Shown here: one piece after another, positions 5,954 to 49,800 of the stretch
Layout: the number at the start of each line of letters is the position of its first letter
How positions within the stretch are numbered: the stretch's first letter is position 1
Assembly (NCBI GenBank): GCA_017626145.1
Contig: JAGAJK010000097.1
Coordinates: 1 to 53,730 of the forward strand
From: Clostridia bacterium
GTDB lineage: Bacteria; Bacillota; Clostridia; RGIG6154
DNA: 53,730 nt
Direction: 5' to 3'
Program-made: the position numbers and the translations under genes
Notes under the pieces: model-generated
What the model saw: only the letters and a program-made list of their open reading frames with translations
The model's database searches: none
What the model was told of the DNA's origin: nothing

Positions 5954-6028
5954 TTGACAAAAGTACAAAAACTCCATTTACAAAAGTACAAAAACTCCAT
6001 TGACAAAAACACAAAAACGTGCTAAAAT
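5954..6028 (+). promoter_or_regulatory. Sigma-A promoter with tandem 23-bp repeats
   Basis: A consensus promoter, TTGACA (6000-6005), 17-base spacer, TAAAAT (6023-6028), drives the cobalamin riboswitch transcript. Two nearly identical 23-bp units (5954-5976 and 5977-5999, one base different) lie immediately upstream, and the promoter -35 region begins a third, degenerate unit. Each unit begins with TTGACA or TTTACA, so the -35 box has in effect been repeated at 23-bp spacing. Confidence 0.8.
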
Positions 6029-6049
6029 ACACAAAGTTTAATATACACA

Positions 6050-6366
6050 CAAAGTGTCGGCTGTGCCGTATGGGCACAGTCGGTGAAAAGGGAATCGGGT
6101 GAGAATCCCGAACGATACCAGTCGCTGTATGTGTTTAGTTTTTACTCGTGACGAAAGTCGGTCATTGGGAAACTGAGAAGGCTTAGTAAAAAACGTTTTA
6201 AAACACAAGTCAGAAGACCTGCTTTGATGCCGTTTTGTAAAATGTATTAATGTAATTACTTATACAAAGAAATGGTAGTTTTATCCGCATATATTTTGTG
6301 GATAATTTGTGGTGACACAGAAATACTCTGCTGTGGTAATTTTTTAAATTGCCGCAGCTTTTTTTA
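6050..6366 (+). promoter_or_regulatory. Cobalamin riboswitch with transcription terminator
   Basis: The B12-box features of the adenosylcobalamin aptamer are present: GGGAATCGGGTGAGAATCCC near 6090-6109, then CCAGTCGCTGTAT, and AAGTCAGAAGACCTGC near 6208-6223. The aptamer spans about 6050-6235. Downstream, GCTGTGGTAAT (6330-6340) pairs with ATTGCCGCAGC (6348-6358) before a run of seven T, giving an intrinsic terminator; an alternative hairpin lies at about 6285-6309. The arrangement fits an off-switch: cobalamin binding would end transcription before the surface-protein operon at 6446. The class is clear; the switching mechanism is inferred. Confidence 0.93.
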
Positions 6367-6445: not shown

Positions 6446-9400
6446 ATGAAAAAAATTATATCTTTACTTTTGATTTTAACATTACTTATTTCAACATTTA
6501 CTTTCGTTTCAGCAGATACTTTAACCTATGAAACAATTATGCACAATGTTGCCTGCCGTATTCCAACTGAAGCCACATTAAGTGATGATTCAATGGAATG
6601 GTACATTGCAGACCTTGCTTCATATAATGATGCATTTGAAGGTTCGCAAAAATTAATTTCTGAAGATTTAAAGGTGCAATTTATCAATGCTTTAATTAAT
6701 AAAGCGGAAGAAAAAAGTGCCCCTGGAGATTTGGCTAAAATCATAATTGCACTTCGTGCGTTAGGTGTTGACGCAAGAAAGCTTTATAATGCAGAGGGCG
6801 AACAAATTGATGCAGTTAAAAAGCTTACCGATTTAATAGATAGCAGAAACGAAAGTGTAATAAACGAATACACCCTTCCCTACGTTATTATTGCTTTGAA
6901 CCAGGGCGAAAATTATGCGTCGCAGGAGCAGATGGATTACCTCTTAACATCTGCAATTAATACTCAGGATGCCTGGAAAAATTTATCCTGGGGATATCCT
7001 GACGCCGCAACTCCTATGATTTTTGCATTAAGTCCATATTATAATTCAAATGATAAAATAAAAACTGCAGTTGATTTTGCAATTGAAACAGTCAAAAGCT
7101 CTATAGATGAAACAGGTGTATCTGCTTCAAATGCATGTTCAACAGGACTTGCAATTGCAGCTTTTTCGGCAATAGGGATAGATTCAACCTCTGTTGAAAT
7201 TAACGAAAGCAATATAAATGTTATCGACGGGGTGCTGACATTTGCAACAGAAAACGGTGACGGTTTTAAATACGGTGAAGAAGAGGCTTCCTTTGCTACC
7301 GAGCAGTCTTTCAGAGGGCTTGTTGCATATGAGCTTTTAAAGAATGGCAAAAAGCTTTACGATTTTTACGATTACCCTATGAATGAGGCTCGCAAAACTG
7401 TTACGGAAAACTGCACAGTAACCTTTAATATCACTCCTGCCGATGCCGTTTTAACTGTAGAAAATGCCGTTCCCATGTCGGAAAACACATATGCTCTCAC
7501 CGAAGGCGTTTACAATTATTCTGTTTCAAAAGAAGGTTATATAACAAAAAATGACACCTTAACAATTACATCCGAGGATATATTATCAGGAACAAAAAAC
7601 GTTTCAATTGTCCTTGAAGAAATCGAAAGTCCTGCTCCCGATATTCCCCAGACTCCGACATTTCGTGTTCGGATAAGAGTAATGGCGCATAATGAAAATA
7701 CCTGCAATAATTCTTTAACGTACAAAGATAACGCTTCCGATTATACAGAAATAGTAAGTGAAGAATTTAACCTGACAGAAAGTCATAGTGTTCTTGATAT
7801 TTTAATAAAAGCCTTAAGAAAAAATAATATAAGTTATACAGAAAACAACGGATATGTTTCTCAAATTAACGGAGTAAGTGAATTTGAACACGGAAGCACT
7901 TCAGGCTGGATGTTTAAATTAAATGGCTTGTATCAGAATAAAAGTGCTCAGGAAATCAATGTAACAGATACAGCAACAATTCTGTGGTTCTACACCGATG
8001 ATTATACAAGAGAAAAGGGTTCAGAAAATTACAGACCGTCTTCTTCGGGCGGTGGAGGTTCGTCAACAAAAACAGAAGAAAAACCGTCATACGATATTGA
8101 AAAAACAACAGAATCCGTTCTTGAATTTATTAAAGAAGCCGTTAAAGCACCCACCTTTTCCCAGACAGGCGGAGAATGGACTGTTTTGTCACTTGCAAGA
8201 AGTGATATAGCATTTGAAGATGACTACTTTGATACATACATAAGTAATCTTAAAAATTATCTTGATGAAAATAACGGTATACTTTCGGAAAATAAGTATA
8301 CGGAATATTCACGTGTTGTAATTGCATTATCTTCTTTGGGAATAAATGCGTCAAAATTTTACGGATACAACCTTGTAGAACCGATATGCGACTTTGATTC
8401 TGTTACAAATCAGGGAATAAACGGTGCTGTATGGGCTTTAATTGCACTTGATTCTGCCGACTGCGATGACGAAGTTAAAGAAAAATATATTGATTATATT
8501 TTATCAAAACAAAACCCCGACGGCGGATGGGCTTTATCAGGGCAAAATGAAGTGTCTGAGGTAGATATGACAGCAATGGCAGTAGTTGCTCTTTCAAATT
8601 ACCAAAATGATACGGCTGTTTCAAATTCAATTGAAAAGGCACTTGATTTCCTTTCAGGAAAGCAGAATAAAAACGGCGGTTTTACCTCTTACGGAGAAGC
8701 TTCTCCCGAAAGCAGTGCTCAGGTTTTGGTTGCCCTCTGTTCGCTTAATATTGATTACACCGACAAACGTTTTGTTAAAAACAAGAAAACATTAATTGAT
8801 AACATATTAAGCTTTTACGTTAAAAATGAAGGCTTTTCCCGTGAAAAGTCCATTCTTAAGACAAATCTTTTAACAACAGAGCAATGTGCTTACGCATTGG
8901 TTGCCTGTGACAGATTTAAAAATAAAAAAAATACCCTTTTTGATATGAGTGATACCACAAAACGCACTCTTACTGAAAATACAGGGCTTAATAACATTCA
9001 CGAAGATATTACCATTCCCACATTATCATATCCAAATAAGACTTTTACGGATATTTCGGACAGTGAAAGCAAGGATGCAATAAATGTTTTGGCAGAATAC
9101 GGAATTATTCACGGCATTTCCGATGAAAATTTTGCACCGCTTGATAATATGACAAGAGCTGAATTCAGCGCAATTATTGTTAAGGCTCTTTCACTTCCCG
9201 AAAAAGACAAAAAAGTATTTAATGATGTTAACGAAGCCGAATGGTATTACGATTACATAAACACGGCATATTACTACGGCATAGTTAAAGGTGAATCGGA
9301 AAACACATTTAATCCCGAAGGAAAAATCACAAAAGCTGAGGCTTTGGTAATGCTCGAAAGAGTGGCAAAGCTTTGCGGTATGGAAAATTCAATTACCGAA

Positions 9401-9598
9401 GACGAGGCAAAAGATATTCTTGCAGGATTCATTGACTACAGAGAAATTCCCGACTGGGCATATATTTCCTTTGCTTTCTGCTGTGACAATAAAATTGCAG
9501 ATGACATTAATCTGTATTCCGAATATGATAAAGCGGTAAACCGTGAAGAAATCGCTCAGTATCTTTACAATATGTTGAAGGTGTGCAAGCTGATATGA
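6446..9598 (+). CDS. SLH-anchored transcobalamin-like surface protein, probable B12 capture
   Basis: A 1050-residue exported protein. Visible parts: signal peptide (1-23, cleavage after FVSA); an alpha-helical barrel of prenyltransferase/squalene-cyclase-like repeats (about 25-315); a PEGA-like beta domain (about 325-395); a DUF4430 domain (406-525) with GWMFKLNG at 487-494; a Ser/Gly linker (532-545); a second alpha/alpha barrel (about 550-845) with PDGGW and NGGF repeat motifs; and three SLH domains from about 867 to the end. Human intrinsic factor and transcobalamin combine an alpha6/alpha6 barrel with a C-terminal domain related to DUF4430, and this gene lies behind a cobalamin riboswitch, so binding of cobamides at the cell surface is inferred. 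SLH domains attach it to wall polymer. It overlaps the next gene by ATGA. Confidence 0.85.
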   Translation: MKKIISLLLILTLLISTFTFVSADTLTYETIMHNVACRIPTEATLSDDSMEWYIADLASYNDAFEGSQKLISEDLKVQFINALINKAEEKSAPGDLAKIIIALRALGVDARKLYNAEGEQIDAVKKLTDLIDSRNESVINEYTLPYVIIALNQGENYASQEQMDYLLTSAINTQDAWKNLSWGYPDAATPMIFALSPYYNSNDKIKTAVDFAIETVKSSIDETGVSASNACSTGLAIAAFSAIGIDSTSVEINESNINVIDGVLTFATENGDGFKYGEEEASFATEQSFRGLVAYELLKNGKKLYDFYDYPMNEARKTVTENCTVTFNITPADAVLTVENAVPMSENTYALTEGVYNYSVSKEGYITKNDTLTITSEDILSGTKNVSIVLEEIESPAPDIPQTPTFRVRIRVMAHNENTCNNSLTYKDNASDYTEIVSEEFNLTESHSVLDILIKALRKNNISYTENNGYVSQINGVSEFEHGSTSGWMFKLNGLYQNKSAQEINVTDTATILWFYTDDYTREKGSENYRPSSSGGGGSSTKTEEKPSYDIEKTTESVLEFIKEAVKAPTFSQTGGEWTVLSLARSDIAFEDDYFDTYISNLKNYLDENNGILSENKYTEYSRVVIALSSLGINASKFYGYNLVEPICDFDSVTNQGINGAVWALIALDSADCDDEVKEKYIDYILSKQNPDGGWALSGQNEVSEVDMTAMAVVALSNYQNDTAVSNSIEKALDFLSGKQNKNGGFTSYGEASPESSAQVLVALCSLNIDYTDKRFVKNKKTLIDNILSFYVKNEGFSREKSILKTNLLTTEQCAYALVACDRFKNKKNTLFDMSDTTKRTLTENTGLNNIHEDITIPTLSYPNKTFTDISDSESKDAINVLAEYGIIHGISDENFAPLDNMTRAEFSAIIVKALSLPEKDKKVFNDVNEAEWYYDYINTAYYYGIVKGESENTFNPEGKITKAEALVMLERVAKLCGMENSITEDEAKDILAGFIDYREIPDWAYISFAFCCDNKIADDINLYSEYDKAVNREEIAQYLYNMLKVCKLI

Positions 9599-10272
9599 AG
9601 TTTTTAAAAAGAAATTGTAAAACACTAATTATATTTGCTTTAATATTTATTATTGTTACTCTTGTTTCTTTTATAGATTTTTCAGAGGATAAAACAACTA
9701 CCTCTGTTAATGAAAAAAAGATTGAGTTTAACGAAAAAGCAGAGGTTGCTGTAACAGACGATATACTTCCGGATTCAATTCCGCAGCCTGAAGAAAATCA
9801 ACCTGAAGAAAAGGTTGAAATTTCCGATGTTGCTGAATCAGATGAAATTGTTTCGGAGGATAATGTTACCAAAAGTGATAAGCTTATATGTACTCTGTCA
9901 ATAAGATGTGATACAATCTTAAATAACCTTAACAAATTAAAACCCGAAAAGGCGGGAATTATTCCACCTTCGGGAATTATTCTTGCCGAAACGGAAGTTG
10001 AATTTTTCGAAGACGAAAATATATTCAACGTTTTGTTAAGAGAAACAAAAAAGAATAAAATACATTTTGAGTTTTCTAAAACGCCTGTTTATAACAGCGT
10101 ATATATAGAAGGCATTGCAAACATATATGAGTTTGACTGCGGTGATTTATCGGGTTGGCTGTATAAGGTTAATTCCCAAACACTTCCGCACAGTTGTTCA
10201 GAATATAAGCTAAAGCCCGGCGATAAAATTGAATTTATTTATACCTGTGATTTAGGAAACGACATAAATTAA
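9595..10272 (+). CDS. Membrane-anchored DUF4430 protein, second gene of B12 operon
   Basis: A protein of 225 residues if translated from the ATG at 9595, which overlaps the upstream stop (ATGA); a GTG at 9583 is possible but less likely. It has a short basic N-terminus, one membrane helix (about residues 8-26) with no clear cleavage site, an acidic low-complexity stalk (about 30-90) and a C-terminal DUF4430 domain with GWLYKVN. It is translationally coupled to the SLH protein and shares its riboswitch. It should sit on the outer face of the membrane with the domain projecting into the wall. A role as inner partner that receives or clamps cobamide is inference; no cobalamin ABC transporter is adjacent. 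Confidence 0.8.
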   Translation: MKFLKRNCKTLIIFALIFIIVTLVSFIDFSEDKTTTSVNEKKIEFNEKAEVAVTDDILPDSIPQPEENQPEEKVEISDVAESDEIVSEDNVTKSDKLICTLSIRCDTILNNLNKLKPEKAGIIPPSGIILAETEVEFFEDENIFNVLLRETKKNKIHFEFSKTPVYNSVYIEGIANIYEFDCGDLSGWLYKVNSQTLPHSCSEYKLKPGDKIEFIYTCDLGNDIN

Positions 10273-10279
10273 TTTATAC

Positions 10280-10342
10280 AAAAAACGACTCCATTGCCAA
10301 GTGTCCTTTAGAACATTTGGCAATGGAGCCGTCGTTTTTTTA
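10280..10342. terminator. Bidirectional terminator with CCTTTAGA loop, copy 2
   Basis: AAAAACGACTCCATTGCCAA-type left arm (10280-10304) pairs with the right arm ending GTCGTTTTTTT (10313-10340). The inner part CCATTGCCAAGTGT/ACATTTGGCAATGG closes the same 8-base loop, CCTTTAGA, as the hairpin at 2420. A-run and T-run flanks let it end the B12 operon on the plus strand and nadE on the minus strand. Confidence 0.85.
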
Positions 10343-30654: not shown

Positions 30655-30899
30655 CTAAAATAAAAAGAGCAATTTCATCCCATAGGGACGAGATTGCTCG
30701 CGGTACCACCCTAATTCAGAGTTTCCTCTGCACTTTTAATGCCTTAATGCGGCAAACATTCTGCTTAACGCGTAACGCTTTTCGCAGACAGCTCCTGTGC
30801 TGAAATTCATACTTCGTGCCCACAGGATACGCTTACAGCCGATGACGTTTCCTCTCTTTTGCGGTCAACGAACACTACTTACACACATTCAATGCCATT
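30655..30899 (-). promoter_or_regulatory. T-box leader, Phe-specific, before pheST
   Basis: On the minus strand the T-box core AGGGTGGTACCGCG (30699-30712) is followed by a terminator stem (GAGCAAT/ATTGCTC with a T-rich tail, about 30663-30699). Upstream lies a long stem I region with AGAGAGGAAACG-like bulge sequence. A TTC codon (30802-30804) followed by A in the specifier-loop position gives phenylalanine, in agreement with the genes. Uncharged tRNA-Phe would stabilise the antiterminator and allow pheST transcription. Confidence 0.93.
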
Positions 30900-30905
30900 T
30901 TATTT

Positions 30906-43223: not shown

Positions 43224-43340
43224 TTGACAAAAGGGTTTTGTTATGATATTATGTTATGGTAACCGCACGAATGTGGTCTTTTTAAGCACCCTTATGGGTC
43301 ACCTTGATTCGGCGAGTCTAAATTTGGGAGGTGAAACCGC
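43224..43340 (+). promoter_or_regulatory. Promoter and L21-type ribosomal leader
   Basis: TTGACA (43224-43229), 17 bases, TATTAT (43247-43252) starts the rplU-rpmA transcript. The leader (about 43258-43340) contains AACCGCACGAATGTGGTC and GGGTCACCTTGATTCGGCGAGTC, arranged like the L21 leader found before rplU in many Firmicutes, thought to mediate autoregulation by L21. Confidence 0.72.
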
Positions 43341-49589: not shown

Positions 49590-49775
49590 TTAATTACCCG
49601 CCGGACCGCTGTTTTTCTGCGTTTTTAAACCTGGTTAATCAGGTGGGTTACCGCTTGAAGGCTTAAATCGCTCCTCCTTCAATGGGAGGCCTGCAAGCCA
49701 CCTTCAAATATAGTTCCCTTATAAAAAGTGTTGGTTCAAAACACGGGCAGACTTCACCACGAATCAGGCAGGAAT
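49590..49775 (-). ncRNA. ssrS: 6S RNA
   Basis: The minus strand has the features of clostridial 6S RNA: GAACCAACACTTTTTATAAGGGAACTA near the 5' side, GGTGGCTTGCAGGCCTCCC and GGAGGAGCGATTTAAGCC in the middle, and GCGGTAACCCACCTGATTAACCAGGTTTA toward the 3' side, closing with GGTCCGGCGGGT. The ends can pair (CCCG and TGTTTT against AAAACA and CGGG), giving a long rod with an internal bulge. 6S RNA mimics an open promoter and binds the housekeeping RNA polymerase. The recognition rests on memory of related sequences; ends are approximate. Confidence 0.72.
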
Positions 49776-49800
49776 AAAGGCAAACTTTTGTTTGCTGTTA

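Follow-up and report, generated by a model that had tools for sequence, protein, structure and literature searches.

A cobalamin riboswitch operon predicted to encode a transcobalamin-like, wall-anchored system for vitamin B12 capture in a Clostridia bacterium

The animal cobalamin carriers transcobalamin, intrinsic factor and haptocorrin (2bb5, 2pmv, 4kki) join an alpha/alpha toroid to a following SLBB beta-grasp domain. Among bacteria, Burroughs et al. (2007) reported surface proteins that combine SLBB domains with toroids, along with paralogous extracellular SLBB genes and CbiO/CbiQ neighbours, and proposed that they scavenge B12 (PMC1796856). On the surface of Bacteroides, BtuG captures B12 for the transporter and is linked genetically to B12 transport genes (PMC6143338). 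Here we describe a two-gene operon at positions 6446–10272 of a 53,730-nucleotide stretch from a Clostridia bacterium (contig JAGAJK010000097.1; hereafter, the window), which a riboswitch, predicted folds and genome context together mark, with high probability, as a system that captures vitamin B12 or other cobamides at the cell surface, has the build of transcobalamin and is turned off by B12.

The operon shares the toroid-then-SLBB arrangement of the animal carriers, at ~11–17% identity in structural alignments, and differs from them in being bacterial, in having an S-layer homology (SLH) wall anchor, a beta-sandwich between the two domains and a second toroid, and in carrying a second SLBB domain on a separate membrane protein. 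With the bacterial SLBB clade of Burroughs et al. (Pfam DUF4430) it has in common the toroid-SLBB protein, the second SLBB gene and genes of the CbiO/CbiQ type; it differs from those systems in lying away from the genes of its transporter and in including two toroids. The 2007 text makes no mention of a riboswitch or of SLH or S-layer anchoring, and a toroid and SLBB domain split over two proteins do not appear in its section on architectures (PMC1796856). Riboswitch control at scale, SLH anchoring and the pairing rule given below are new beyond that study, and a search of the open-access literature, with subscription papers outside its scope, found no study that had tested B12 binding by a DUF4430/toroid protein from bacteria. 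The original prediction for this DNA gave the system the part that BtuG plays in Bacteroides; the comparison holds for an analogue in role and not for a demonstrated relative, BtuG being an outer-membrane lipoprotein that works with BtuB. The host's other cobalamin riboswitch heads genes for an energy-coupling factor (ECF) transporter, EcfT plus an EcfA-EcfA-S fusion (EcfAA-S), that resembles ECF-type B12 transporters of the CbrT/CblT class, with the specificity of its S component read from the riboswitch. To our knowledge, the characterised ECF B12 importers have not been described with extracellular capture proteins.

Operon layout and predicted products

Two overlapping genes on the same (+) strand form a closed operon behind a promoter-like site, a cobalamin riboswitch and a terminator, with these features in the window:
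6000..6028 (+): promoter-like TTGACA-17-TAAAAT with TG extension, 7 bases 5' of the riboswitch, recognised by consensus matches only (11/12)
6035..6240 (+): cobalamin riboswitch aptamer RF00174 (cmscan 76.4 bits, gathering score 31.5, E 4e-17)
6330..6366 (+): intrinsic terminator of the leader (13-bp stem at 6330-6358 plus T run)
6446..9598 (+): gene 1, predicted wall-anchored transcobalamin-like protein of 1050 amino acids (open reading frame, Pfam, AlphaFold model, structural matches)
6446..6514 (+): probable signal peptide, residues 1-23, read from the sequence MKKIISLLLILTLLISTFTFVSA
6518..7399 (+): toroid 1 (alpha/alpha), residues 25-318 (AlphaFold model, structural matches)
7412..7612 (+): beta-sandwich spacer, about residues 323-389 (model strands; PEGA-like by pattern only)
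7661..7996 (+): SLBB/DUF4430 domain, residues 406-517 (Pfam E 6e-13; model strands and helix; matches transcobalamin beta domain 5no0)
8111..8995 (+): toroid 2, residues 556-850 (Pfam Prenyltrans E 2e-9), followed by no SLBB domain in the same chain
9032..9580 (+): SLH domains, residues 863-1045 (Pfam SLH E 3.5e-25; PDB SLH matches)
9595..10272 (+): gene 2, predicted membrane-tethered SLBB/DUF4430 protein of 225 amino acids from ATG (N-terminal hydrophobic segment; DUF4430 E 3e-13; family alignment)
10289..10328 (+): terminator-like hairpin (16-bp stem) closing the operon, common to the convergent gene

The RF00174 match is full-length (model positions 1–189 of 189) and above the curated threshold, and the riboswitch sits ~200 bp upstream of the genes, outside the 6446–10272 range. 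The terminator stem of the leader folds at −17.4 kcal/mol (z −4.2), with 0/200 shuffles equally good. The genes overlap in ATGA at 9595–9598, where the start of gene 2 is taken as the ATG at 9595 (the program-made list of open reading frames (ORFs) begins it at GTG 9583). Because the strong hairpin at 10289–10328 precedes a convergent nadE-like gene, the transcription unit consists of the two genes, and the earlier claim that a cobalamin riboswitch and terminator head two genes only is borne out. NCBIfam holds no specific family name for either protein.

Pfam and the model give gene 1 the order signal peptide, toroid 1, beta-sandwich, DUF4430/SLBB, toroid 2 and SLH domains. Toroid 1 has no Pfam match, yet it is a confident alpha/alpha toroid in the AlphaFold model; the beta-sandwich likewise lacks a significant Pfam match. 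The DUF4430 match covers residues 447–517, over the cut-off. In toroid 2, which is homologous to stand-alone toroid/SLH proteins adjoining gene-2-like genes, the Prenyltrans match covers residues 658–800. The two toroids, DUF4430 domain and SLH region had all been foreseen; of the three SLH repeats claimed, two stretches are significant in Pfam and the third repeat is weaker, and the beta-sandwich had gone unnoticed. Gene 2, as had been proposed, reads as a membrane-tethered DUF4430 protein, in which a single hydrophobic segment at the N-terminus is followed by a low-complexity stalk and then the DUF4430/SLBB domain (residues 141–217, over the cut-off). The DUF4430/SLBB domain found in both proteins points to membership of the operon in the transcobalamin-like SLBB clade.

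We compared an AlphaFold2 model of gene 1 residues 25–535, built from 19 aligned sequences (mean predicted local distance difference test (pLDDT) 89.5; predicted template modelling score (pTM) 0.64), with solved structures, as the original prediction had proposed for transcobalamin. The ten best Foldseek matches were chains of transcobalamin, intrinsic factor and haptocorrin only, aligned through both domains (E 4.2e-9 to 1.3e-7, probability 1.00), and the next match had an E value of 5.6e-4. VIA-align gave Z 17.5–19.2 over 336–350 residues against transcobalamin and intrinsic factor, including 19.2 over 340 residues spanning both domains for intrinsic factor 2pmv. In the predicted structure, the strands of the SLBB hairpin (440–443 and 446–450) come after the helix (425–435), and a hairpin after the helix is the defining feature of the transcobalamin clade of SLBB domains (PMC1796856). 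As modelled, gene 1 thus has the transcobalamin/intrinsic factor architecture, an alpha/alpha toroid joined to an SLBB domain, and the mismatch of folds that would have counted against the original prediction did not occur.

Host genome and related loci

The host genome, which is 95% complete, has genes for two MetH-like proteins and one B12 radical-SAM protein, and no match to cbiH/cobJ was found in it; judging by its genes, the bacterium apparently needs B12 and cannot make it. RF00174 has only two matches in this genome, one heading the operon described here and the other, on contig C50, heading EcfT and EcfAA-S. On contig C45, a further cluster combines genes for a giant SLBB/SLH protein and a toroid/SLH protein with genes for a gene-2-like protein, a CobA adenosyltransferase and another ECF transporter. 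No riboswitch was found in this cluster, whose contig begins only 883 bp before the gene concerned; in a similarly arranged locus (L092) a riboswitch lies 760–1000 bp ahead of the same gene, so that one in C45 would be expected right at the end of the contig. Repeats around GPWPRVLEKAGLK mark a small protein that is encoded just before the giant SLBB/SLH gene of the C45 cluster (L007, 303–887) and, in genome G004, just after a riboswitch (L022, 5293–5742).

CsaB is required for SLH anchoring, and the host genome has a CsaB gene (TIGR03609, 281.8 bits, over the cut-off). Together, the SLH repeats and the predicted CsaB pyruvylation of a wall polymer suggest that the gene 1 product is an SLH surface protein.

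Relatives show the same association with cobalamin riboswitches and ECF genes. In a class survey of 79 genomes, DUF4430 occurred in 40 genomes and 60 clusters, of which 33 had a cobalamin riboswitch on the same strand at most 8 kb upstream (0.3 expected by chance); in two it was on the wrong side. Lone ORFs of <190 amino acids, apparently another subfamily, made up 11 of the 27 clusters without a riboswitch. Searches at the level of the order gave nothing further, the order comprising the same few genomes. A separate scan of named genomes with the gene 2 family recovered at least 579 relatives (counted as matched stretches), and 80 loci were kept; many of the relatives come from gut or rumen metagenome-assembled genomes, others from Paenibacillus and elsewhere. 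The gene-2-like gene directly follows a toroid gene in 67/72 loci with enough upstream sequence, and EcfT directly follows the gene-2-like gene in 62/76 loci with enough downstream sequence. An Rfam scan of relatives' loci found a cobalamin riboswitch in 12/14. In the closest full ortholog (L023), which lacks toroid 2, the riboswitch is followed in a single row by the toroid 1-SLBB-SLH protein, gene 2, EcfT and EcfAA-S.

The reading as B12 or cobamide capture is supported by the riboswitch and terminator, the transcobalamin-like folds, MetH without cbiH/cobJ, a riboswitch regulon that includes an ECF transporter, and the conserved operons with EcfT and EcfAA-S. With the SLH domains and CsaB added, the same lines of evidence favour the wall-anchored B12 or cobamide system that had been suggested from the sequence.

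Three smaller observations concern DUF4430 genes elsewhere. Two tandem cobalamin riboswitches lie upstream of a DUF4430 gene in L022 (G004:C29:5778-6373), and tandem copies also occur in L111. A lone gene for a 147-amino-acid lipoprotein-type DUF4430 protein (L029 8596–9039, genome G001) has no obvious B12 neighbours, and small DUF4430 proteins seem to form a separate subfamily. In genome G002, where no cobalamin riboswitch was detected, a gene for a 152-amino-acid lipoprotein-type DUF4430 protein overlaps one for a 182-amino-acid membrane protein resembling an ECF S component (L030 6814–7783); the two may be a comparable pair serving a different ligand.

Pairing of toroid 2 with gene 2

We propose that, when corrinoid is scarce, the leader would be read through and both proteins made, and that high B12 would make the riboswitch terminate transcription. 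The gene 1 protein would be held in the wall by its SLH domains on pyruvylated wall polymer, and the gene 2 protein would go to the membrane. Toroid 1 and its own SLBB domain may clamp one corrinoid in cis, while toroid 2 and the membrane-borne SLBB domain of gene 2 may bind corrinoid in trans, with B12 itself joining the halves. Binding in trans would bring B12 to the membrane beside an ECF importer, encoded elsewhere, that would take it up, with MetH as the likely user.

The arrangement of relatives bears on the second of these sites. We classed 81 toroids from the kept loci by whether an SLBB domain follows in the same chain. Toroids without one directly precede a gene-2-like (membrane-tethered SLBB) gene in 65/70 cases, and toroids with one in 0/11 (Fisher p 4e-10, a guide only because related loci are not independent). 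Three loci (L107, L147 and L159) have two toroids as in gene 1, the first with its own SLBB domain and the second without one and adjoining gene 2. In another (L120), the toroid-2 and gene-2 families are naturally fused in one chain of 463 amino acids, whose model (pLDDT 88.2) has full-length transcobalamin-family chains at Foldseek ranks 1–15 (best E 2e-10). Human transcobalamin domains made separately assemble only after cobalamin is added (PMC5599065). This pairing rule, the fusion and the cobalamin-driven assembly of transcobalamin domains together suggest one site formed in trans, a "split transcobalamin" whose two halves would belong to the wall and the membrane respectively. We put at about even the chances that toroid 2 and the gene 2 SLBB domain are two halves of one cobamide site on different envelope layers, drawn together by the vitamin and carrying it from the wall to the membrane importer.

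Alternative readings and significance

Several points weigh against the reading as transcobalamin-like B12 capture. The orientation of the domains in the 25–535 model is unreliable (pTM 0.64), and the two are placed differently from those of intrinsic factor 2pmv (root mean square deviation ~21 Å over both domains), so that closure of both into a sandwich around one cobalamin is at most a possibility. Toroid 1 alone matches type II terpene cyclases best (VIA-align Z 20.5). When alignments of gene 2 and of the two toroid-SLBB units were run as sequence profiles against the PDB, no transcobalamin match came back, and the link to transcobalamin stands on predicted structure and genome context, not on sequence profiles. 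At 95% completeness of the host genome, failure to find a single gene is no proof that synthesis is absent. The pairing loci were all picked for holding a gene-2-like gene, which inflates the absolute fraction; the informative part of the count is the contrast of the two toroid classes within the same loci.

The toroids might instead be terpene or squalene cyclase-like enzymes, in an operon that makes or modifies a surface lipid. Type II terpene cyclases have the same toroid fold, and matches in Pfam and among PDB sequences are to squalene-hopene cyclase and drimenyl diphosphate synthase; the highest structural Z scores of the toroid taken alone are to such enzymes, and RefSeq labels relatives as prenyltransferase/squalene oxidase repeat or terpene cyclase/mutase proteins. 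The catalytic DxDD motif, however, is missing in 73/74 related toroids, and the one copy in gene 1 (residue 672) is part of a loop that varies among relatives; with the motif unconserved (1/74 related toroids), we rejected a type II terpene cyclase identity. Signal peptides and SLH anchors place the proteins outside the cell, neither control by a cobalamin riboswitch nor linkage to ECF genes fits such an enzyme, and the structural matches that span two domains are to transcobalamin only. We therefore regard the enzymatic reading as very improbable. The RefSeq terpene cyclase and prenyltransferase names on relatives of the toroid halves are probably misleading.

It is also unlikely, if less so, that the ligand of the proteins is something other than a complete cobamide: cobinamide or a different precursor, cobalt or haem. 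The proposal of Burroughs et al. leaves room for B12 precursors (PMC1796856), the title of a solved Ruminococcus gnavus SLBB domain (3u7z) calls it a putative metal-binding protein, and haptocorrin-type binders accept incomplete corrinoids (PMC5599065); against this, the riboswitch senses cobalamin, the linked CobA acts on corrinoids, and the two-domain match is to cobalamin carriers. A stronger contender, to which we give somewhat less than an even chance, would have gene 2 act as a separate binding subunit docking on the ECF transporter, with toroid 2 binding B12 alone or serving a structural role; it competes with the split site only, not with B12 capture. EcfT directly after the gene-2-like gene in 62/76 loci suits such docking, and an isolated beta domain of transcobalamin can bind cobalamin alone (5np4; PMC5599065). 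A subunit independent of the toroid sits poorly with the 65/70 against 0/11 contrast between toroid classes and with the occurrence of both families fused as a single transcobalamin-like chain.

Concentration of B12 outside the membrane is little known in Gram-positives, whereas Bacteroides has BtuG. The evidence presented here gives the 2007 prediction a specific and testable form, a widespread system of riboswitch-controlled, transcobalamin-like catchers beside ECF importers, with at least 579 matched stretches. Were binding confirmed, the human B12 carriers would have a counterpart in bacteria, which may even be their source, as PMC1796856 proposes; many genes that now carry a terpene cyclase annotation would be explained, and it would be seen how Clostridia compete for B12. 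The split site, if real, would give Clostridia and Paenibacillus a general mechanism of uptake, and its rule would describe a new means of carrying a vitamin through a thick wall.

Elsewhere in the window, Rfam matches were ordinary: a T-box leader at 30681–30901 (−), an L21 leader at 43253–43329 (+) and a 6S RNA at 49591–49777 (−).

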